64,000 nt of DNA, from IMG/VR virus record IMGVR_UViG_3300046675_000234, positions 1-64,000 of that record, one strand, 5' to 3'. The stretch's first letter is position 1. Every line of letters starts with the position of its first letter. Origin of the DNA: a virus. The notes under the pieces are model-generated. The model ran no database searches, had not been told where the DNA came from, and saw only the letters and a program-made list of their open reading frames with translations. Below are positions 7,901-25,837 of the stretch, piece by piece. Position numbers and translations under genes: made by a program.

Positions 7901-8610
7901 GGCTGGATCAGGGTGCCAGCCGAGGCGAAGAGCTGCTTGAGATCGGGCAGGAGATCATGCAGCATCTTCGGGATCTCAGCGAACGCCGTCCGCAGCGGCG
8001 CGACCAGCGGCTGGGCAGCCGCCTTCATGGTGGACTCGAACGCCTGGCCGACCGGCTGAGCCGCGCCGTAGAGCTGGCCGGGGTCCTTCTTGGTCCCGAT
8101 CAGGGTCTTGGCCCCGAGACCGATGACGCCCGCGCCGACCGCGCCGACGCCGAGCGCGCCGCCGAGCGCGGCTGCGGCTGGCAGTGCCCCGGCCAGGATG
8201 CCGCCGCCGCCGACGATCGCGGCGTTCCGCGCGCTGATGCCGAGGATGCCAGGCCCGCCGCCGCGCCCGATGCCCGCAAGCAGGCTGGCTGCCGTCAGGC
8301 CGCTGACGCCAGCCCTGCCGCCGCTGCCGCCTTCGGCGGTGCGGAGCGATTTCCCGCCGAACAGCCCGCCGAGCACCGAGCCCTGCGAGCCGCGTGAGCG
8401 CTGGATCGCGTCCCGCGTGAGCTGCTGGTCGAACCGGCTGAACTCCTGCCGGGCACGGCTCATCTCGCTCTGGTCGATGACGGGCGTGATCTTCAGCTCG
8501 CGGTGATCGTCCTCGAACCGCTTGACCCGCGCCTCGGCCTCATCGAGCTTGCGGTTGAACGCGGCCAGGTCTACATCGAGGTGAGCCTGGATCGCACCGG
8601 CATCAAACAC
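4906..8610 (-). CDS. Tape measure protein with NlpC/P60 and tail-lysozyme domains
   Basis: This 1234-residue protein sets tail length and probably also opens the cell wall during DNA entry. Residues 1-70 are charged and coiled-coil-like, followed by Gly/Ala-rich helices. From about 250 to 700 there is a long series of hydrophobic helices typical of tape measures. At about 890-990 sits an NlpC/P60-type domain with GADCSGFV (Cys about 932) and DPGHVAIV (His about 982). At about 1045-1150 a second hydrolase-like domain follows, with NIEQESGG (Glu about 1060), matching the pattern of phage tail lysozymes. It overlaps the chaperone extension upstream by 8 nt and the Dit-like gene downstream by 8 nt. 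It is the longest tail gene, as expected. Confidence 0.92.
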   Translation of the reverse strand: MFDAGAIQAHLDVDLAAFNRKLDEAEARVKRFEDDHRELKITPVIDQSEMSRARQEFSRFDQQLTRDAIQRSRGSQGSVLGGLFGGKSLRTAEGGSGGRAGVSGLTAASLLAGIGRGGGPGILGISARNAAIVGGGGILAGALPAAAALGGALGVGAVGAGVIGLGAKTLIGTKKDPGQLYGAAQPVGQAFESTMKAAAQPLVAPLRTAFAEIPKMLHDLLPDLKQLFASAGTLIQPLLHGINDLAHMVLPGLSAALRAVAPLLRPILDGFGQLIAGILPGLVSLLRAAAPVITVIAGVLGTLGRDLGSMLSDFAPVLKQSAVIFKALFDVVGALLPIIGQLAAIFARALAPIVSEFAKILVALMPTLIIVGKVIADLAGAVILDLVAAFKAIADVIIGISPALSTFAKAFSQVFTVLENSGVFAVIASALEAVSKPLATMISQILVGLTPLLPPLIKFLGQVTTVLAKGLASAIIALLPPLTTLAMTVIQALVELLPILLPLFTGLVNLLTPVFVRVIQDLALALSAVIRAVPASVLRDIALGFLAIWAAIKIGGLIASVSNPVTLIAIAVGLLIVGIVELAKHWNQVWTNVKNWAKDAWEFLTHGWGQFLMPGLTLIRLAVEFVRTYWRDAWQNMKDIGHNFYTWLWSDFGAKIVHFITVTLPNAWSSAVDSIRRLWGKVEDVVKAPVKFVIDNVLDGLISVFDTITGAIGLGSVHINQVHPFGLAAGGRITAGTGPVADDVLIRASKDETVVSAADSKTLAPIFAWLGIPGYQTGGRVGQPPSISAAQARFGTSVSPTGGSPIPGGGIIHNVTHAVGQAAATVGHAIAGIAGKAIDVGKMGLAFVTGNRKAFENAFADLLGLGTGGAAGIVAKILTQIPKKMVTDLVNWIMGKSATMGSGGEIAKYAASFLGKIPYVWGGTAVPGGADCSGFVQAIYEHFGIAAPRTSEAQGSWVKRSPPTTGGLAFYHSPAGGADPGHVAIVRNALQVISQGGGMGPQLMNIHAMPLLWTGVPPGGLGGAKGGHGGVPANAGAMAAYFASHGFTRNAIAGLLGNIEQESGGDPMAGTNPPGRGLIQILGDPGGSLAQELARTMVYIAQNGSVADINAHAGTPTEAAVYFSDKYERPGNPMIQNRIAGANASYAAGYAKGGVIREPIIGFGGSGRVYTFGENGAEYVTPAGPGGGPPGGAMIGNVHIQLPEGQTVARALSELTYWLKVAQQQGFAGVLPGG

Positions 8611-9321
8611 CAGGCTCGCCTCCTTCCGCCTGCCTGGCCCGCCCGGCTTCCAGCTCGGCCCTGAATGCCGTCAGGTCGAACACCTTCTGGCCCATGTCCA
8701 CGCCCTCGCGGATCTGCGGACCCGCCACGCCGGGTGTCATCTCGCCTGGCTCGCCGCCGCCCTCCTTCCAGGAGAACGGGACCGACTCATCCTCGGCCAG
8801 TCCCTCCAGGTAAGCCCTCTGGATATCCCAGCTCAGCTCATCCCATTGGCCTGGCAGCAAGTCCAGGTAGCGCTTGACGGTGTAGAGGATTACGCGCCGC
8901 GTGCGGTGGGCAGCTTCGTTACCTGCCCGTTCCCACCTGGACTCGCGGCTTCCGGGGACATGACCTCGGCCTGGAGCCACGCGAAGAAGATGTTGCGGAC
9001 CCGCATCGGCAGCGCCATGATCTGCTCGACGGTCGGGGTACCCGAGCACAGCGCCGAGTAGATCTCGGCCATCTTGCCGATCTGCTCGATGGTCTTGGCC
9101 GGGTCGAGATCCTCCATCATCGCCAGGAGCGCGGCCGGGTCGCTCTCCGTGATGCCCTCGGGAAGATCGGCCTCCACCTCCTTGATGGTGGCCTTGACCC
9201 CGGTCAGGAACGCCGCGATCTGGTTGTCGGTGGGCTCGGGGATGGTACCCCTGGCCGCGACGTACGGATTGAAATCCCAGTCGAGCGCCTCTACGACGCC
9301 CTGGGCCTCAAAGCCTGCCAT
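8603..9321 (-). CDS. Tail assembly chaperone, long form by -1 frameshift
   Basis: A second frame, open from at least 9049 to 8603, continues beyond the stop of the shorter chaperone (8890) in the -1 register. Its unique part starts as VILYTVKRYLDLLPGQWDEL and ends with QKVFDLTAFRAELEAG, a typical acidic, helical chaperone tail. No start codon with a ribosome site lies near the join, so the product is expected as a fusion to the upstream chaperone. This arrangement just before the tape measure gene is conserved in siphoviruses. No canonical slippery heptamer is visible in the overlap. The G-rich GGTGGGAAC at 8929-8937 is only a candidate, so the exact slip point is unresolved. Confidence 0.7.
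8890..9321 (-). CDS. Tail assembly chaperone, short form
   Basis: Product is 143 residues, acidic, helical, and rich in Glu and Ala. It lies between the major tail protein and the tape measure gene. That position, together with the overlapping -1 frame, identifies the lambda G/GT-type chaperone pair that coats the tape measure protein during tail assembly. The sequence contains PEPTDNQIAAFL and DPAALLAMMEDLDP and ends VTKLPTARGA before a TAA at 8890. It starts with ATG at 9321, 8 nt after the major tail gene stop. Confidence 0.8.
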   Translation of the reverse strand: MAGFEAQGVVEALDWDFNPYVAARGTIPEPTDNQIAAFLTGVKATIKEVEADLPEGITESDPAALLAMMEDLDPAKTIEQIGKMAEIYSALCSGTPTVEQIMALPMRVRNIFFAWLQAEVMSPEAASPGGNGQVTKLPTARGA

Positions 9322-15964: not shown

Positions 15965-16624
15965 CTACAGCCCCATCTGGCTCTTGGCGCGGTTGATGGT
16001 GTCGGTGCGCTCCGTCTGCTCGGCGGACGGCCCCGCGCCGGGCGGCTCGTCCATCGGGGAGCCCAGCTCGACGTCCAGGTTGAGCATCTGGGCCATCCTG
16101 GCGTACTCGGTCAGCACCTTGCGCATGACCTGGCCCGCGTCGGCCCGCTGCCCGTTGGCCAGGTCCACCGTGTGCCCGGAGCCCTGGAGCAGCGGCCGGG
16201 CCAGGTCGGTGATGTAGGGCGGTACGCCGAGATCCGCCAGCTTCCGCTTCTCAGCGTCGAATGCCGACACCTCGTACCGGGTCTGGAAGACGGCTAGCTG
16301 GCGCTCGGTCTCGTCGGCGCGGCTGTTGGCGAGGTCGATGGCCATCTGCGCCTCGACGGACAGGCCGGTAACGCCAGCCCCGGCCAGCGTCTCGGCGTCC
16401 ATCCCGGCCTCGATCTCGGCCAGCTCGTCGTCACCGAGCGCGTCGATGAGGTCGGCCAGCTCTTCGTCGGACAGCTCGTCGTCATCGGCGGGAGCGGTGC
16501 CGTTGCCGTTCGGGGCTGGCGGGGCTGACGGGGCCTGCGCTCCGAGCAGCCGGTCCAGGGCAGCGGGGTCCAGGTTGAGCAGGCGGTTCAGGTTGGCCTG
16601 CTGCTGGGCGTTCAGTTCGGGCAT
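15965..16624 (-). CDS. Possible nested scaffold protein from an internal start
   Basis: Inside the protease-scaffold gene, ATG 16624 (MPELNAQQQANLNRLL) is preceded by AGGAAGTGGAGACC, giving both AGGAAG and GGAG at useful spacing. A product of 219 residues would be the acidic scaffold part alone, in the same frame as the parent, as in the lambda C/Nu3 arrangement. The evidence is the local ribosome site and the domain boundary. No independent proof is available from sequence. Confidence 0.4.
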   Translation of the reverse strand: MPELNAQQQANLNRLLNLDPAALDRLLGAQAPSAPPAPNGNGTAPADDDELSDEELADLIDALGDDELAEIEAGMDAETLAGAGVTGLSVEAQMAIDLANSRADETERQLAVFQTRYEVSAFDAEKRKLADLGVPPYITDLARPLLQGSGHTVDLANGQRADAGQVMRKVLTEYARMAQMLNLDVELGSPMDEPPGAGPSAEQTERTDTINRAKSQMGL

Positions 16625-17167
16625 GGTCTCCACTTCCTGTCCGGCATAGCTGGAACCGGTGAGGTCGATGACAAGGGACGGCGTATTGGCCGCCTCGACG
16701 GTCTGCCAGGCCCCCAGGCCCGGAATGCGCGGGTCCAGGGTGCCGAGCACATGCTGGATCGCGGCGGGGTAGAACTTGCCGTCCGCCCGCTGGTACTGCT
16801 CCACGATCCGGGCCGACACGCCCAGGTACGGATTCTCGCGCAGGACTGCCTCACCGCGCTCGGTCGGGTCGAGCACCATCCACAGCCCGTCCGGCTCGGC
16901 CTCGAACCCCACGACCGTGCCCCGGTGCCGCTCCGGGTCATTGGTGTGGGTGTTGCCTGCGTCTGCGAGCTGGAAGCTCACCTGGTCGTACGCCTTGTCG
17001 TTGAAGGCGTTCGCCAGTCCCTGGAGGTAGTGCGGGGTGAAGTGCAGGGTGCGGCCCTGGTAACTGATGTCGCCTACCGGCAGCACCCGCTTGCGCCAGA
17101 GCTTGCTGGACATCTCGATCGCGTTGCCCCGGTCGAACGGGGTCAGCAGGGCTGCGAAGGCACCCAT
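15965..17167 (-). CDS. Fused capsid maturation protease and scaffold (Mu I-like)
   Basis: Product is 400 residues. The first ~170 residues resemble Mu I-like prohead proteases: PVGDISYQGRTLHFTPHYL, NTHTNDPERHRGTVVGFEAE and NPYLGVSARIVEQY, with the Ser of GVSARI as a candidate nucleophile. The rest (about 190-400) is acidic, Ala/Leu/Glu-rich and coiled-coil-like (LSDEELADLIDALGDDELAE), as expected of scaffold. In phages of this type the protease cleaves the scaffold from the procapsid after assembly. An internal ATG at 16624 with a ribosome site may also make a separate scaffold (see the nested entry). Confidence 0.75.
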   Translation of the reverse strand: MGAFAALLTPFDRGNAIEMSSKLWRKRVLPVGDISYQGRTLHFTPHYLQGLANAFNDKAYDQVSFQLADAGNTHTNDPERHRGTVVGFEAEPDGLWMVLDPTERGEAVLRENPYLGVSARIVEQYQRADGKFYPAAIQHVLGTLDPRIPGLGAWQTVEAANTPSLVIDLTGSSYAGQEVETMPELNAQQQANLNRLLNLDPAALDRLLGAQAPSAPPAPNGNGTAPADDDELSDEELADLIDALGDDELAEIEAGMDAETLAGAGVTGLSVEAQMAIDLANSRADETERQLAVFQTRYEVSAFDAEKRKLADLGVPPYITDLARPLLQGSGHTVDLANGQRADAGQVMRKVLTEYARMAQMLNLDVELGSPMDEPPGAGPSAEQTERTDTINRAKSQMGL

Positions 17168-18013: not shown

Positions 18014-18895
18014 TCAGACCTTCTTGATGAACTCGACTATGGGCTGGATGATGAACGGCAGCGCAGAGGTGAGCAGGGCGATCAGGTCCGGCACGCCCAG
18101 CCGGGACTCGACGTAGGCGGCGATGAATCCCGCCACGGCACCGCCAGCCTCGATGGCCAGCTTCTTTGCCCTCCGCTGGCCTTCCACGGTCTCGTGCGCC
18201 GCGTTCGCTGCGGCTATCTTGTCGGCCACGACCTGCTGGGCCTTGGTCAGCACCGCCTGCGCCTTGGCCGTAGCCAGCGGCTCAACCTGCGTCTTCAGGA
18301 GCTGCTCGTGGATAAGTTGCTCGCGCCTGGTCGGCTGCACCTTGCCGGATACCTGGAACGCGACCTCAGCCGCCTTGTTCTCGGGTGCGATGTCAGCCGG
18401 GATCTTCGCCGCGATGGCTGCCGGGATCTTCTGCGCTTCCTCGCTCGCCGCCTTCTGCGCTTCCTCGCGGGCGATCCTGCGCATCTGCGCTTCCTGCATC
18501 CGCTTGATCCTGGCCTGGCGGGACCGGGATGTCACCGGCTCCTGCGGCGGCCTGTACCCGGCCCGAGAGCCGGGACTGCCGCCGCCAATCCACTTGCCGC
18601 CCGGACCCCGCCGCTCGTGCATCCAGGCGTCACTGGCCAGCTCGACAAGCTGGCTGACGAGAGTGTCTCCCGCGAGCTGCTGAAGGATCGTGTCCTCGCC
18701 GTTCACAGGCCCAGTATCCAGCGTCCCCGCCAGCCTGTGAAGCATCGTGCCCGCATCCTGGATCTCGGTCAGCTCATCACCGGTCGCGGTGCTGGCCAGG
18801 CCGCGCACCTGCTGGATAGCGGTCTGCACCCGGCCCGCCGGGTCCTCCCAGGCCCACCGGGCAATGCTCAGTGCCTGCTGTCCGCGTGGCGTCAT
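18014..18895 (-). CDS. Capsid-region coiled-coil protein with RGPGGKW module
   Basis: Product is 293 residues. Residues 1-80 are helical (ARWAWEDPAGRVQTAIQQV). At about 87-102 is LASDAWMHERRGPGGKWIGG, which resembles the RDxxGRW modules of the neighbouring polyvalent protein. From about 125 to 245 the protein is a long charged, Ala/Lys/Glu-rich coiled coil (RIAREEAQKAASEEAQK). The last 45 residues are hydrophobic (GGAVAGFIAAYVES, LIALLTSALPFIIQPIV) and could insert in a membrane. The start overlaps the upstream stop by 4 nt. It is possibly an internal head protein ejected with DNA. Confidence 0.55.
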   Translation of the reverse strand: MTPRGQQALSIARWAWEDPAGRVQTAIQQVRGLASTATGDELTEIQDAGTMLHRLAGTLDTGPVNGEDTILQQLAGDTLVSQLVELASDAWMHERRGPGGKWIGGGSPGSRAGYRPPQEPVTSRSRQARIKRMQEAQMRRIAREEAQKAASEEAQKIPAAIAAKIPADIAPENKAAEVAFQVSGKVQPTRREQLIHEQLLKTQVEPLATAKAQAVLTKAQQVVADKIAAANAAHETVEGQRRAKKLAIEAGGAVAGFIAAYVESRLGVPDLIALLTSALPFIIQPIVEFIKKV

Positions 18896-21800
18896 GCTGC
18901 CCTCTCAGCCATCTCGCGCTGCTTGTCGGCCACCTTCTGTATTGCCACGGCCCTGGCCGCGCCGAACGCCTGCTTGGCCGCGCCCTCGGGATTGCCGGTG
19001 TTCCACTGGTGGAGGATGGCATCCGCGATCTTCATCGTCAGGTCATCCATGAACGTATTGTCAGCGCGCAGCTTCGGGTCCTTGGTCATGGCGTAGGCGA
19101 GCTGCTGGGACATGATCCCGAGCTTGCCAGCCGCCCCCTGGCGGTTGACCTCATCCGTCAGCTCGACTATCCGCGCATGACCGGCCTTGTTGCCGAGATC
19201 CTGGATGCCTTCCTCCCTGGCGATCTGCTGCACCCAGTCCTGGGCGTCCTTGGTCTGGGTCGGGTAGTGCTTCCAGCCGTTGCCGTTGGCAATTTCCTCC
19301 GGGTTGTCGATGGTCACGGCCATCTCGTGCACGGTATGCCCTGGGAATCGTGGCGTCGGCCGGTCCCCGATGCCTATCTGGTCGAAGAACTCGGCCGCGT
19401 GATGGGTCGCGCCCAGCTCGGTGAAGCCTTCCTCGATCTGGGAGATGGCGAAGACCTGGTACGCCTTCTTGTTGTCGGCAGCGGAGCCCTCCGGGACCGC
19501 GCCGTGGAACGTCTCATGCAGGATCACCTCGAACGCATCGGGCTGCTTCACGTCACCGGGCAAAGACATGTCGTCCTGGAGCGCCTGGGCCACGTTGGAG
19601 GCGACACTCATCGTGCCGTCCCACTCCATCTCGGCCAGGACTTCCTTCTGCTCGCTGTACAGGAATAGCTTGACCTTGCCGTTCCACTCTTCGTGACTGC
19701 CGCCGATCGCCTTGGGCACGAACTCGGCCGCCGGGGTAGCCACCCTGGCGACCGCAGCCTTCAGCGCAGGCTCATTCGCCATCGGAGCGCCGACAAACGG
19801 GTCAGCCGCCGCGCGGATCAGCTTGTGGAGGTTCAGTTGCTCGCGCTGGCCCCTGGTCCACCGGCCCCGGCGGTCGCGCAGCTCGTCCGGGTTGAAGTGG
19901 GGAGCGAACTGGAAGATCTGCCCGCTGATAGTAGGCGGCTCGTCCTCCCCCTCGTCATCCTCGGGCTCGGGAGCCTGGACCGCCTCAGCCTGGGAGCGCC
20001 ACTGGCCGGGACCAGCGAAGTGGACGGTATCCGGTGTCGCCATCGCCGCTCCTTCCGCTACGTGAGGTGGCCAGTAACCGTCGCCTGTCCTGAAATGGTA
20101 TGCGCCCCCGATGGCTCTGGTGTACGCACCGATCGCCTCGACTTCCTCGGGGGTGTCCACTACGGCTACCGGGTCGATGTCAATCCGGTTCAGGTCATCG
20201 TCGTGGAAGATCCCCAGGTAGAAGCCCCGGCGCTCCAGGGCGGGCCGGAACTCGTCCTTAGCCTGGTCCATGGCCCGGCTGAAGTCGGGGTAGCTGGCGT
20301 GCTCAGGGATGCTGATCGAGTGCATGCCCCTGGGCTTGACCGACAGGGCGTACTTGTCCGCGCCCTGCGGCAGCGCTGAGCCGGTATGACCGTCGATCGT
20401 GCCGCCGCCCCACGGCTTGCGCACCTCGGCGTACATGTCGCCCTTGATCTCGGGCCAGTACTCGTCCATGCCGTGGATCGGGGAGCTGTCCCGCTTCATT
20501 TTGTCGATCATCTGGTTGCCCTTGGCGGCAATGTGCTGGTACTCGTCAAAGCTGACCGGGCGGCTGTTGCCGCGCGCCTCGGCGGCGGTGATCACCGGCC
20601 GGACCCGCTGAGACTTCCTCGGGCCTGGCATCAGCGACTCGGCGGCCTTGCCAGCCCCGGTGCCGGGCACCTTGACCCAGCGGCCCTTATCATCGCGGGG
20701 CTCGGCCGGGTCGAACCGGAAATCGAGCACCTGGGCGATCAGCAGCTCGTTGGCCCACGACTCGGACATCGGGCCGGTGGTGCCGGGGATCAGCTCGTAC
20801 TTGTGCCGCGCGGCCTCGGCCTGCCAGCGCGTCCAGGAGTTGCGCAGCATGGTGTTCCGGCCCTTGGACAGCCGCCGACCGCCCCGGCTGGCGGTCACAG
20901 TCTCGGCCTGGCCGATGTGCGCCTCGTCCTCGGCCTCGTTGATCCGCTGCTGCCGCAGCCAGGTGATCGCCTGGAGCTGGTGAGGCGAGACCGGCGTGCC
21001 CCGCTTGCTGATCTCCAGGGCGGCATCGCGGTAGGTGTCGGCCACGTACTGGTAGTAGCGGTCGTGGCCGATCGGGGCCTTGTCGGCTTCCTTCTTCGGG
21101 ATGCGCTTGCCCATGGCCACGGTCATCGCGTGCCGGTCGATCACGACCTGGCCGGACGTGTCGCCGGGCTCATCCCCGCCGTACCGGATCAGCCGGGCGA
21201 ACGCCTTGGTCTTGGAGCTGGAGTTGGCAACGTCGGCAGCCTCGCCGTCGATGGCTTCCTGGGCGTTGCGCTGCATGGACTGGGTGATCATGCCCTCGCC
21301 AGGCCCGAGCGCGCGGCCGAGATCCAGCGACCGGTCGGCATTGAGCATGTTGACGGCCCAGCCGGTCTGCGGCGACAGCGCGGCGATCACGCCCGCGTTC
21401 TTCTCGATGTCGCCGTGGTCCATCTTCTTGGCCAGGTTGTGCGCGTCGGCGTACCAGCGCATCCCCTGCGCCCGCTCCTGGGCGTCGGAGTCGTCGTAGG
21501 CGGCCACGATGTGCGCCGCGCTGACCGGGTTGGCCTGGAAGAACGGGTGATCACCGGGCATCTTGTACGTGGCCCGGCTGCTGCGCAGCCGCTCGGGGTC
21601 CGGCTTGACGTAGCCAGCCCCGGTCTTCGTCCACCGGCCGCGCACGTCGCGCTTCTCGAACGGGTCGAACTTCCAGCCCAGCTCCATCGGGATGGCGCTC
21701 TCCACCAGCGTGGAGTTGCCGAGCGGCCGGGCCTCGATGCCCATCTGCTGGGCGAACTGGTTGGCGTACGGGATGGCCAGGTGCACCGGCAGGTTGATCC

Positions 21801-22638
21801 GCTGCACCTCGATCTCGCGTGGCCCGTTGCCGCTGAAGGCCAGCGCCTCATCAGACGCCCAGCGGTGGTGCCCGTCGATCACGTAGTTATCGCGCGTCAC
21901 CCATATGGGCTCCTTCAGCATGTGCCGGACCTTGGCGTTGCCGCTCTCGGCGGCCTTGGTGATCCCGGCAACGGTGGCGGCGGTGAGCTGGGTCTGGGTG
22001 GCGCGCAGGTTACCGGCCGGTACGCGCTCGTTGCGGACGTCGATGCCGTCGCGCCTGAGCTGGGCACGGAACTCGGCGTCCAGCTCGATGAACTTGTTGG
22101 CCCCGCCCGCCAGCAGGGCGGCCTCGGTACCAGGCAGGGCCGGGCCGTTGAGCTGCGGCATGGCGGTGCGCGGGATGCCCCTGGTCTGCTCGTTGAACAG
22201 CCGGGTGCCCCGCACGCTGATGTTGCCCAGGTCCCAGCCCGGCTCATGACCCCGGCTGTAGCCCTGCGCGGTGGCCTGCCGGTCCACCTCATCGAGCAGC
22301 GGCTTGATCTCGGCCGGGCTGTTCAGCCGGACATGCTTGCCGCTCGCCATCAGCGCCACGGCCCGGCCCATGTCGCCCGCCACGTCGATCGGGTCGGCTG
22401 CCGTGCCGTCGCCCTGCGCCCGTCCGGGCTGCTCCAGCGGCTTGCGCCCGTCCGCTGGCTCCATCGACGGCACCAGCGGGTCGTAACCCATGAACTTGCC
22501 CTGGTAGCCGTGCCGTTCCTGGCCGGGCTCGCTGGGCACCGTCGCGCCGTGCGTCCACCGGCCGCGCGTGTCGCGTTCCTCGTGCAGCCAGCCGGTATGC
22601 GCGAGGTCCGTGGTGAACCACTCCAGCAGCTCGGTCAT
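18892..22638 (-). CDS. Polyvalent capsid-associated protein: ParB-like, glycosylase-like, unknown and HExxH peptidase domains
   Basis: Product is 1248 residues with four modules, each opened by an RDxxGRW motif at about 22-28, 330-336, 648-654 and 921-927. Module 1 has a ParB-like core (VIDGHHRWASDEALAF, about 250-265). Module 2 has AGVIAALSPQTGW, QVVIDRHAMTVAMGK and PHQLQAITWLRQQ, a pattern seen in phage domains related to HhH-GPD glycosylase folds. Module 3 ends in FHDDDLNRIDIDPVAVVD with no clear function. Module 4 holds HETFH (about 1041-1045) and a downstream Glu (EEGFTELGATHH, about 1067), giving a zinc peptidase. Multidomain polyvalent proteins of this kind are known to be delivered with phage DNA and to act on host defences or DNA. 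Delivery here is inferred from location between portal and capsid genes. Confidence 0.75.
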   Translation of the reverse strand: MTELLEWFTTDLAHTGWLHEERDTRGRWTHGATVPSEPGQERHGYQGKFMGYDPLVPSMEPADGRKPLEQPGRAQGDGTAADPIDVAGDMGRAVALMASGKHVRLNSPAEIKPLLDEVDRQATAQGYSRGHEPGWDLGNISVRGTRLFNEQTRGIPRTAMPQLNGPALPGTEAALLAGGANKFIELDAEFRAQLRRDGIDVRNERVPAGNLRATQTQLTAATVAGITKAAESGNAKVRHMLKEPIWVTRDNYVIDGHHRWASDEALAFSGNGPREIEVQRINLPVHLAIPYANQFAQQMGIEARPLGNSTLVESAIPMELGWKFDPFEKRDVRGRWTKTGAGYVKPDPERLRSSRATYKMPGDHPFFQANPVSAAHIVAAYDDSDAQERAQGMRWYADAHNLAKKMDHGDIEKNAGVIAALSPQTGWAVNMLNADRSLDLGRALGPGEGMITQSMQRNAQEAIDGEAADVANSSSKTKAFARLIRYGGDEPGDTSGQVVIDRHAMTVAMGKRIPKKEADKAPIGHDRYYQYVADTYRDAALEISKRGTPVSPHQLQAITWLRQQRINEAEDEAHIGQAETVTASRGGRRLSKGRNTMLRNSWTRWQAEAARHKYELIPGTTGPMSESWANELLIAQVLDFRFDPAEPRDDKGRWVKVPGTGAGKAAESLMPGPRKSQRVRPVITAAEARGNSRPVSFDEYQHIAAKGNQMIDKMKRDSSPIHGMDEYWPEIKGDMYAEVRKPWGGGTIDGHTGSALPQGADKYALSVKPRGMHSISIPEHASYPDFSRAMDQAKDEFRPALERRGFYLGIFHDDDLNRIDIDPVAVVDTPEEVEAIGAYTRAIGGAYHFRTGDGYWPPHVAEGAAMATPDTVHFAGPGQWRSQAEAVQAPEPEDDEGEDEPPTISGQIFQFAPHFNPDELRDRRGRWTRGQREQLNLHKLIRAAADPFVGAPMANEPALKAAVARVATPAAEFVPKAIGGSHEEWNGKVKLFLYSEQKEVLAEMEWDGTMSVASNVAQALQDDMSLPGDVKQPDAFEVILHETFHGAVPEGSAADNKKAYQVFAISQIEEGFTELGATHHAAEFFDQIGIGDRPTPRFPGHTVHEMAVTIDNPEEIANGNGWKHYPTQTKDAQDWVQQIAREEGIQDLGNKAGHARIVELTDEVNRQGAAGKLGIMSQQLAYAMTKDPKLRADNTFMDDLTMKIADAILHQWNTGNPEGAAKQAFGAARAVAIQKVADKQREMAERAA

Positions 22639-24473
22639 CAGGCCGCCTTGGCGCGGGCCTGCTTCTCCAGCTCGCCCGCCTCGGCCTTGCCAGCCGCCGC
22701 CCGGACCTCGGGATGGACGTGCCCGCCACCGCGCGACCAGCGCCGGATCGCGGCCCGCGCGATGGCGTACGCCTTGCCGGGCGGCATGCCGCGCTTCTCG
22801 ATCAGCGCCTTGACGATCTGCTGCTCGTACGGGGTGTGGCCCATGCCCTTGACGTGGTAGAGCCCCGGCCCGCCGGGCTTGCCGCGCGGTGCTGGCGTGA
22901 CGCTCAGCCTGCCGGTGTTGGCGCTCAGCTCGGTGGCCATCTGGACCTGCTTGCTGCGGGCCTGGGCCAGCACCGCCTGCGCCTTGTTGTGCTGCGGCCC
23001 GCCCTTGCGCAGCTTGCCGTACAGCTTCTGCTTGCGCGTGTCCCCGCCGAACACCTGCGTGAAGCCCTCAGCCTCGCGCTTGGACAGGTGCCTGCCGAAA
23101 GGGCCGGTGATACCCGGCACGCCGGTCATCGCCCGGTTGCGCTCAGCCTGCTTGCTGACGTGGACCCCCTTGCCGCTGCCCTTGGGAGCGAACAGGTTCT
23201 GGAGGCCCTTCGCCTCACGGTGGGAGACGTGGCTGCCGACCATGGCCCTGGCAGCCGATCCGGGCTGGAACTCCCCGTGGCTGAGCTTGCCCTTCTCACC
23301 GGGCATGCCACCGCCCATGACCCCGGCCGCGTCCCGCAAGGAGCGCCTGATCTTGTCGGCCTCCAGCTTGATCCAGCCGTGCCGGTAGCGGAAGGCCAGC
23401 TCAATGGCGTTGTCTATGTTCTCCCAGGAGTACCCGATGGTGGTGGTCAGCTCGCCGGGGTGCCTGACCGTGGACGGGTAGTAGCCGGGGCCGTGCTTGA
23501 TGCCGGGCTGGCCGGTGCCGATGGAGCGCGGTGCCCGCCAGCTCTCGTCCTGGGCGTAGGTGCCCCTCGGCACACCGGACAGGCTGCGGCGGATGCCGAC
23601 GACAACGGCATGGCTGCCGGTGCCGCGTGTCGCGCGCTCCGCGACCGACAGGTGCACCCGGACGCTCTTCATGTCCCGCTCGCCCAGCGCCCGGCCTGCG
23701 TTGTGCAGCGCGTTCGCTGCGATATCGCTGGTTGACCGGACAGATTCCGCTGCTGCCATGATGGCCCGGATGTGGCCGAAGTCACCGGGCTTGCCGGTGT
23801 AGTCGAGTTTCTCCGACCGGGCGTGGTGGCCCGGAGCACCGCGCCGTGCCTGCTCCGAGACGCCCAGCGCCCGGACCAGCCCGGCCCGCTGCGCCATCCG
23901 CATGCTGGCCGTGTTCCGCATCATGCCGGGGATGCCCTGCCACCGGCCCCAGCGGTCGCGCGGCTGTGCCGGGTTGAACGCCAGCTCGACCGCCCCGCCG
24001 TCCTCGTTGGCGAGCTGCCGGATCTGGGTGGTGAGCGCGGCGATCATCTGGGTGATGATGGCCGCCGCCTCCTTGACGGTAAGAACATGCCCCTTGGCCG
24101 GGGCCTTGCCAGCCGGTGCCCCGGCCTTGGCCTGCTTAGCCGACGTCGCCGCCGCGCCCTTCTTGGCAGGGGTCGAGCTGGCCGACTTGCGGTGCACCAC
24201 GGCCTTGCCGGTGGCTGCCGCCGTGGCTGCCCGCTGGGCCTGCCGGGCGGTGAGCTGGTTATGCTCCAGCTCGGCCAGGATCTTGCGCAGCGCCTTGATC
24301 CTGGCCGCCAGCGCGGCCTTCTTCTGCTGGCTCGCGGTCGGCGGCGGCTTGCCCTTGGCCGCTGGCTGGCTACCGGGCGGGGCGAACTGGCCGCCGGTAG
24401 CGGCACCGGCTCCTACGCGGGGCTGGGCCGGGTTGAACAGCTCGATGGCTAGCTCAACTGAGCCCCAGCCGGG
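22638..24473 (-). CDS. Capsid-region multidomain protein, -1 frameshift extension of the 24449-25837 gene
   Basis: The frame is open from 24473 to 22638 (611 residues), but its first ATG/GTG/TTG is a GTG at 24200. The 91 codons before that look coding. They contain ELAIELFNPAQPRVGAG and ATGGQFAPPG, a module also seen at about residues 160-180 as ELAFNPAQPRDRWGRW. A canonical slippery heptamer (CCCTTTC, 24473-24479) lies in the overlap with the upstream gene, so expression as a 1066-residue fusion ending here is predicted. Later segments include AIELAFRYRHGWIKLE, a central basic region (HVSHREAKGLQNLF repeated as HLSKREAEGFTQVF) and a C-terminal GKAYAIARAAIRRW. It is probably an internal virion protein. 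Independent translation from 24200 is the alternative. Confidence 0.65.
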   Translation of the reverse strand, partial: PGWGSVELAIELFNPAQPRVGAGAATGGQFAPPGSQPAAKGKPPPTASQQKKAALAARIKALRKILAELEHNQLTARQAQRAATAAATGKAVVHRKSASSTPAKKGAAATSAKQAKAGAPAGKAPAKGHVLTVKEAAAIITQMIAALTTQIRQLANEDGGAVELAFNPAQPRDRWGRWQGIPGMMRNTASMRMAQRAGLVRALGVSEQARRGAPGHHARSEKLDYTGKPGDFGHIRAIMAAAESVRSTSDIAANALHNAGRALGERDMKSVRVHLSVAERATRGTGSHAVVVGIRRSLSGVPRGTYAQDESWRAPRSIGTGQPGIKHGPGYYPSTVRHPGELTTTIGYSWENIDNAIELAFRYRHGWIKLEADKIRRSLRDAAGVMGGGMPGEKGKLSHGEFQPGSAARAMVGSHVSHREAKGLQNLFAPKGSGKGVHVSKQAERNRAMTGVPGITGPFGRHLSKREAEGFTQVFGGDTRKQKLYGKLRKGGPQHNKAQAVLAQARSKQVQMATELSANTGRLSVTPAPRGKPGGPGLYHVKGMGHTPYEQQIVKALIEKRGMPPGKAYAIARAAIRRWSRGGGHVHPEVRAAAGKAEAGELEKQARAKAA

Positions 24474-24479
24474 AAAGGG
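24447..24479 (-). promoter_or_regulatory. Programmed -1 frameshift signal: slippery CCCTTTC plus hairpin
   Basis: On the minus strand the zero-frame codons CCT TTC are preceded by C, giving X XXY YYZ with X=C, Y=T, Z=C (24479-24473). Two nucleotides later an imperfect hairpin follows: GGCT, GGG, GCTC, AGTT loop, GAGC, T, AGCC (24470-24447), with the inner stem 9 nt from the heptamer. The zero-frame TAG (24451-24449) lies in the 3' part of the hairpin. After a slip both tRNAs re-pair as CCC and TTT. Confidence 0.75.
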
Positions 24480-25837
24480 GGCGGCCCCATGGGGTTGGAG
24501 TAGCCCATCGGCGGGACCGCCGACCCGGCCTGGAACGAGCGGCCGATGCTGCGCGCGATGGCCAGCGCCTTGTTGTGGCTGTGCCCCTTGGCCCGCGCTG
24601 CCCGGTAGATGCGCTGCTGCCGGGCGGCTTCCTTCGCTATGGCCTTCGCCTTGTTGCGGCCCATCCCGGCGGCGTACTTGCCCGCGTCGGCGCGCTCATC
24701 GGCCAGCATCTTCGCCCGGCTGGTGGCCGGGGGCCTGCCCTTCGGGCCGACCGTCTTGGGCTGCGTGCCGTTCTCGAACCTGGCAGCAGCACGCTCGATC
24801 CGCTGGACCAGGCCCGGCCCCTTCTTCTGCCGTGTCTCCAGCGGGAAGCCAGCGCCGCTGGCAGCAACCTCGGCCGCCGACCCGGCGTGCCACGTCCCGC
24901 CGAGCTTGCCCCTGTTCGGCATGCCCGGAAAGTCGCCTATGACCGCGCCGTAGTCTGCGGCACCCCTCCCCGGCCTCACCTTCGCTGCTGCTCTCCTGGA
25001 CGCGAGAGTCCCCTTGAATGCAGCGGTACTGCGATTGGCTCGTTCCACGGCTGCCGTCGCGGCCCGCTGACGCGGAGACACGCTGCCGCCGCCGTCGAGC
25101 CTGATCCAGCCGTGCCTGAAGCGGAACGCCAGCTCCAGGGCATCGAGCTGACTGGCGTGCTTGCTGCCGAGCTTGGCGAACCCCTTGCGCCCGTACTTCT
25201 TGCGCCCGATGTACGCGGCCAGCGCGCCGGGGTTGCGGGCACCGCGCTTGGCCAGCACGCCCTGGAGCTTGGCGAAGTTCTTGCCCGATCCCGGCTTGGC
25301 CCCGGCGAAGGTGGCCAGCTCGATCGCGTGCAGGTGCGTGTCCCAGCTCGCGGCGACGGCAACTGGCGGTGCTGCTCTCATGGCTCTCTCCTGATCCCGG
25401 ACGTCGCGGCGGTGCTGGCCGATGGCGCGGTTGGACCCGTGCACGTCCTCGATGTCCTTGATCAGCAGCAGGTGCCGGTGCGCTTGCTGCATCATCGCCT
25501 TGCCGCGCATGTGCCCGGCATCGTCGTGCACCCCGTGCCGCCGCAGTTGCAGCGGCTGGAGACCGAAGATCGCGGCGTTGACGTGTCGCTGGGCGCTGTG
25601 CGTCCGGCCCGAGTCCAGCTCGCGCGCCGCGTCCTGGAGGTGCTGGTGCACGTCCATCTCGGGGTAGGAGGTGGCCATGTTGGTGGCCAGCTTGCGCAGC
25701 CCGCTGCTGGCGCGGGCCTTCATCTCCCCGGTGGCGATCTTCCGGCTGAAGACGTGCTCGGGCTCAGGTCCCGGCGGCGTGGTCACAGGCGGGGCGTCAA
25801 CGCCGATCGGCCGCTGGTTGTCTGCTGCTGCTGCCAT
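24449..25837 (-). CDS. Capsid-region internal protein with GARNPGALAAYI and RHGWI motifs (short form)
   Basis: Product is 462 residues from ATG 25837, 4 nt after the MuF-like gene stop. The longer start at 25897 was rejected because it overlaps that gene with Arg-rich sequence. Residues 1-150 are helical and His/Gln-rich. Then come IELATFAGAKPGSGKNFAKL, RGARNPGALAAYIGRKKYG and ALELAFRFRHGWIRLDGG. The C-terminal third is basic and helical with GHSHNKALAIARSIGRSF. The protein then ends in a Met/Pro-rich tail (PMGPPPFPAGAQLS), encoded over the slippery site. Basic, Ala-rich composition and position between portal and protease genes suggest an internal, DNA-contacting head protein. Confidence 0.65.
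   Translation of the reverse strand: MAAAADNQRPIGVDAPPVTTPPGPEPEHVFSRKIATGEMKARASSGLRKLATNMATSYPEMDVHQHLQDAARELDSGRTHSAQRHVNAAIFGLQPLQLRRHGVHDDAGHMRGKAMMQQAHRHLLLIKDIEDVHGSNRAIGQHRRDVRDQERAMRAAPPVAVAASWDTHLHAIELATFAGAKPGSGKNFAKLQGVLAKRGARNPGALAAYIGRKKYGRKGFAKLGSKHASQLDALELAFRFRHGWIRLDGGGSVSPRQRAATAAVERANRSTAAFKGTLASRRAAAKVRPGRGAADYGAVIGDFPGMPNRGKLGGTWHAGSAAEVAASGAGFPLETRQKKGPGLVQRIERAAARFENGTQPKTVGPKGRPPATSRAKMLADERADAGKYAAGMGRNKAKAIAKEAARQQRIYRAARAKGHSHNKALAIARSIGRSFQAGSAVPPMGYSNPMGPPPFPAGAQLS

Follow-up and report, generated by a model that had tools for sequence, protein, structure and literature searches.

Probable -1 frameshifting at a unit joint of a head-region polyvalent protein in an uncultivated soil phage

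How can a long coding frame that lacks a usual start codon be translated? This question is raised by a head-gene locus in the IMG/VR virus record IMGVR_UViG_3300046675_000234. The DNA analyzed here, referred to as the window, is the stretch of 64,000 nucleotides covering positions 1 to 64,000 of this 81,691-base record. On its minus strand, a gene designated A is followed in the -1 frame by a second coding stretch designated B, and a candidate slippery heptamer lies shortly ahead of the stop codon of A. The features concerned are as follows.

24449..25837, minus strand: gene A, zero frame, 462 amino acids (aa), ATG 25837 to TAG 24451-24449; from the sequence and from the nonsynonymous to synonymous ratio (pN/pS) of its first 449 codons
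24473..24479, minus strand: slippery heptamer C CCT TTC, the proposed -1 slip site, in zero-frame register and kept in the close relatives L003-L006
24449..24451, minus strand: zero-frame TAG stop, from the sequence
22638..24479, minus strand: B, read in the -1 frame over 613 codons between the heptamer and the stop at 22638; from the sequence and from constraint relative to L004

The explanation put forward in the preliminary description of this DNA, a -1 frameshift at the heptamer, is upheld by purifying selection in the -1 frame, by the single frame found in most relatives and by the recurrence of slip sites. It is highly probable that -1 slippage yields an A-B fusion, and the locus is best read as a case where -1 frameshifting would join units of virion 'polyvalent' polyproteins.

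Coding in the -1 frame at the joint

The preliminary description had recognized C CCT TTC as an exact X XXY YYZ heptamer in the correct register, followed by a -1 frame open to 22638 and startless until GTG 24200, with a predicted fusion of 1066 residues. Each of these elements was reproduced, the heptamer lying at 24479-24473. The -1 frame is open between a stop at 24698 and 22638, and no ATG, GTG or TTG occurs in it from the heptamer to GTG 24200, this part containing only ATC and CTG. The zero frame reads ...GPPPFPAGAQLS* and gene A terminates in ...MGPPPFPAGAQLS, while the -1 reading continues as ...PPPFPGWGSVELAIELFNPAQPRVGAGAATGGQF...; translation from ATG 25837 through the slip gives the full 1066 aa, with ...PPPFPGWGSVELAIEL as the fusion junction. 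In-register heptamers with Y=A/T (A/T-type) amount to 26 in the 160,564 interior codons of the phage group (1.6e-4 per codon), and nine late genes of the window, with 5,547 codons in all, contain none. The chance of an A/T-type heptamer in a 30-codon stretch is about 0.5%, and the occurrence of one at the window joint is more than expected by chance.

The close relatives consist of four IMG/VR contigs originating from other metagenomes, with an identity to the window locus of 99.97% for L003 and of about 97% for L004, L005 and L006. The heptamer and the frame break are present in all four, hence in five assemblies including the window, over a divergence of up to about 3%. Three extra bases directly follow the heptamer in L004-L006 and leave both frames open. 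These three contigs are identical between the heptamer and 24200, and were therefore treated as one comparison rather than three. Over this interval, 14 changes between the window and L004 were scored, which in the -1 frame comprise 12 synonymous and 2 nonsynonymous ones (P=7e-6); none would be synonymous with a zero-frame phase assumed past the stop. The pN/pS relative to L004 is about 0.3 for the first 449 codons of A and about 0.2-0.3 for downstream B. The low number of nonsynonymous changes shows that the stretch from the heptamer to 24200 is translated in the -1 frame despite the lack of a usual start. By this comparison, purifying selection acts on the -1 frame from the heptamer onward, and translation of B begins at or near the heptamer.

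Production of B as a separate protein was considered, by reinitiation at a rare codon just past the TAG (ATC 24446 or CTG 24440) or at GTG 24200. The stop is separated from the possible ATC and CTG starts by a few bases only, and L004 displays a GTG at codon 22. This mode of expression is nevertheless improbable, as the -1 frame codons upstream of 24200 are constrained, no ATG has arisen, the relatives have no need of reinitiation with both ends in one chain, and the heptamers found at other joints (see below) would be left unexplained.

Two further explanations invoke the run of five C at the heptamer (24481-24477). In the first, an assembly or sequencing artefact, a true run of six C would have been read as five in a gene that is actually single-frame. 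A sixth C would restore one frame, and compared with shorter runs, those of six C or G are somewhat under-represented. Five separate assemblies from two lineages nevertheless concur, runs of 6 and 7 C are present in the window and in other contigs bearing the same sequence block, L102 carries an in-frame run of five C in a linker of this kind, and an artefact would leave the C CCA AAA sites described below unexplained. An artefact is therefore very improbable, and collapse of a C6 run was judged unlikely in view of the assembly agreement and of the 6- and 7-C runs found elsewhere. In the second, RNA polymerase would add a C within the run, so that some of the mRNA molecules would have the frame restored and encode an identical fusion. 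Five C is generally a short run for polymerase slippage and the C CCA AAA sites display short runs only, which makes this the least probable of the explanations considered.

The A-B protein in relatives

A portal search gathered 71 loci. In L016/L065, the next-closest relatives (portal 90%), the gene occupies one frame of 1069 aa running straight through the joint, which reads ...TGAAPFRVVELFNPAG... / ...ATPTGAAPFRVVELFNPAG...; by comparison, the window contains one base fewer upstream of the heptamer. The sequence CCCTTTC is also found in L016, in frame as CCC TTT C. The two ends of the protein could be followed across further loci by means of two conserved domains, the first of which was modeled with a predicted local distance difference test score (pLDDT) of 97.

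25409..25741, minus strand: conserved helical N-domain of A, found in 39 other loci; model pLDDT 97
22641..22931, minus strand: conserved C-domain of B, sharing one open frame with the N-domain in 31/33 other loci holding both

The two exceptions are L014, which belongs to the clade of the window, and L068. In the latter, a +1 break is observed near 19332 of the A-B homologue, at CCC TTT CGG TAA and beside a partial duplication; it may be a +1 frameshift or a mutation. Homologues with an unbroken frame had been regarded in the preliminary description as evidence against a frameshift. Such homologues do exist, and they argue for the fusion and not against it: since the domains share a single open frame in 31 of the 33 loci, A and B are parts of one chain, the normal polypeptide of the family, which the slip would restore. 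The comparison shows that A and B form a single chain in nearly all relatives.

The same data can be accounted for by corrective slippage, where a 1-nt deletion would have broken an ordinary gene in the lineage and a CCCTTTC present by chance would rescue some of the ribosomes, A alone being a useless by-product. The single frame of L016/L065 and of the 31 loci, the in-frame CCC TTT C of L016 and the unconstrained tail specific to A alone are in agreement with this explanation, and corrective frameshifting has already been described (PMC5009743). The chemistry would be that of the fusion reading itself. Corrective slippage thus addresses the purpose of the slip within that reading, and the confidence placed in the two overlaps.

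Candidate slip sites at other unit joints

A survey based on codon-usage segmentation of 68 non-redundant loci revealed five places where coding moves to the -1 frame with no start codon close by: in the window, in L075 (CCCAAAA) and in L101, L110 and L111 (CCCTTTY). All five display an in-register A/T-type heptamer, which is found at none of the 3 startless +1 changes and none of the 104 start-bearing +1 junctions. L101, L110 and L111 share one site, bringing the count to three independent sites, for which the probability by chance is about 1e-7. The sequence common to these phages and to the window extends beyond the heptamer.

24473..24489, minus strand: shared block TGGGGCCGCCCCCTTTC, also present at a different joint in L101, L110 and L111

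The block TGGGGCCGCCCCCTTT is identical in the window and in these three divergent phages, where TGGGGCCGCCCCCTTTY is located at another joint, between a DUF7178 unit and the next unit (junction ...GPPPFPPGLAAQALDF in the L101 type). That joint is in frame in other phages including the window, L102 displaying ...LLEPPPFPDGSLAAQALDL. The pattern TGGGGCCNCCCCCTTTY has 16 matches in IMG/VR, and solely the four in the phage group sit at a change from frame-0 to -1 coding. The sequence C CCA AAA occurs at further joints in L041, L043, L058, L070, L054 and L075. It is also observed that CCCAAAAGCCTGA lies where an upstream unit joins the A homologue in L043 (5515), L058 (9823) and L070 (6021), the slip-plus-stop being kept while the flanking proteins differ. 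As judged from sequence comparison, the proposed frameshift of the window is no isolated oddity, comparable slip sites being found repeatedly where units of this protein array meet.

This recurrence favors actual use of the slip sites, whereas the majority single-frame state favors correction. Against the latter, divergent phages carry the block and comparable heptamers at joints elsewhere, and a random 1-nt deletion in the nine late genes gives an in-register heptamer before the next stop at just 0.7% of positions. Corrective slippage is given somewhat less than an even chance.

A number of points weigh against the frameshift reading. The arrangement, whose conservation would support programmed frameshifting without being required for it, is not kept family-wide, only the clade of the window being split at the A-B joint. 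With the single-frame form as the majority state, regulated frameshifting could be absent and the break be a 1-nt deletion that is tolerated and that slippage corrects at low efficiency. The tail specific to A alone is unconserved, with a pN/pS of about 1 over 12 codons. Possible start codons are present near the junctions of L070, L054, L041 and L043. Finally, a stimulatory structure with strong conservation was not established. The hairpin (24447-24470) placed after the heptamer by the preliminary description does fold in the window, at -10.9 kcal/mol (z -1.55). It is lost in the sister lineage L004 (-4.9, z 0.11), and was rejected as a stimulator for this lack of conservation. A larger stem forms in both, with a moderate stability for a GC-rich genome (10th and 3.5th percentile).

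~24421..24468, minus strand: candidate larger stem 3' of the heptamer, from folding of the window and of L004

Gene context and comparison with known systems

On the minus strand, the genes run from the terminase large subunit and the portal (Portal_Mu) through a MuF-like gene, A and B to a 1248-aa multi-unit protein, after which come smaller genes and then the major capsid gene. Several distinct domains are thus carried per polypeptide in a head-gene context, as is characteristic of polyvalent proteins. Within B, two motifs can be located.

24384..24437, minus strand: FNPAQPRVGAGAATGGQF module in the -1 frame, from the sequence
23940..23978, minus strand: FNPAQPRDRWGRW unit header within B, from the sequence

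In the 1248-aa protein (18892-22638, minus strand), DUF7178 (5.8e-35) is accompanied by two stretches, one ParB-like with DGHHRW and the other with HETFHG, as well as by repeated F[ND]P...RD..GRW headers. A likely head protease-scaffold gene is located at 15965-17167 (minus strand); its longer apparent homologue in L090 matches Mu-like_Pro weakly (1.5e-4, below cut-off). Among isolates, the closest portals are those of Streptomyces phages, with an identity of about 38%. No match to A or B was obtained by TBLASTN against isolated phages, none was confirmed for A-derived alignments against prokaryote genomes, and no Pfam or PHROGs family scored above cut-off for either. Neither PDB nor BFVD contains a structure matching the model of the A N-domain at E<=0.001, and the model of the B C-domain is mediocre (pLDDT 76). 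An xELA/F cut-site motif is more frequent in A and B than in shuffled sequences, a hint only as the pattern was picked after viewing the sequences.

The proposed mechanism can be summarized as follows. Ribosomes translating gene A would arrive at C CCT TTC, which we infer to be the actual slip site, and the tRNAs for CCU and UUC would re-pair with CCC and UUU. After this one-base backward slip, translation would proceed through B and produce the 1066-aa A-B protein, non-slipping ribosomes ending at the nearby TAG to release the 462-aa A alone, which may have a role of its own. The A-B product would be packaged in the head like other polyvalent proteins, with possible cleavage at the repeated xELA/F sites preceding units. 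More tentatively, at a level of confidence comparable to that given to corrective slippage, the phage group may link the units of its packaged polyvalent polyproteins by interchangeable -1 slip sites. The TGGGGCCGCCCCCTTTY cassette or C CCA AAA would then be used at differing joints, alternating between in-frame and slipped states and tuning the copies of downstream units per head.

In tailed phages, the tail chaperone is the best-known site of frameshifting, a few capsid genes being known besides. In the present uncultivated phage group, frameshifting appears to recur at the unit joints of long multi-domain head-region proteins, and a given joint is in frame or slipped depending on the phage, which makes the origin, spread and loss of slip sites testable. 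Gene callers blind to frameshifting will mis-annotate such proteins as truncated genes. A literature search on frameshifting at CCCUUUC gave no relevant hit among the titles and abstracts listed. A SEA-PHAGES survey of annotated joined genes lists 2397 tail chaperones and 79 hypotheticals (PMC10885494), and an earlier unlabelled case may therefore exist.

As in the tail assembly chaperone G/GT, a slippery site in a structural-region gene would lead to a fusion, but the gene, its position and its size differ. The window also contains a chaperone-like pair (8603-9321, minus strand) upstream of the tape measure gene, with a -1 overlap and no in-register X XXY YYZ heptamer. Corrective or 'savior' frameshifting similarly offsets an indel by ribosomal slippage and restores the normal protein; most known cases are mitochondrial (PMC5009743), whereas the slip sites described here are found in phages and repeated at related joints. 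The polyvalent proteins of Iyer et al. 2017 (PMC5512222) share the multi-unit organization, the head-gene context near MuF-type genes, the ParB-like and zincin-like units and the predicted packaging; frameshifting is mentioned 0 times in the text of that paper. A further parallel may be found in the -1 frameshifting of phage capsid genes, as in Lactobacillus phage A2, T3 and Listeria A118/A500 (reviewed in PMC5009743). There too, a fraction of the ribosomes slips in a head gene and adds a C-terminal extension, and the frame status varies among relatives, as the review notes for Ig-like extensions. The protein of the window differs in being a multi-unit head-region protein rather than the major capsid protein, in having an extension longer than its first part, and in the presence of sites at several joints of the array.
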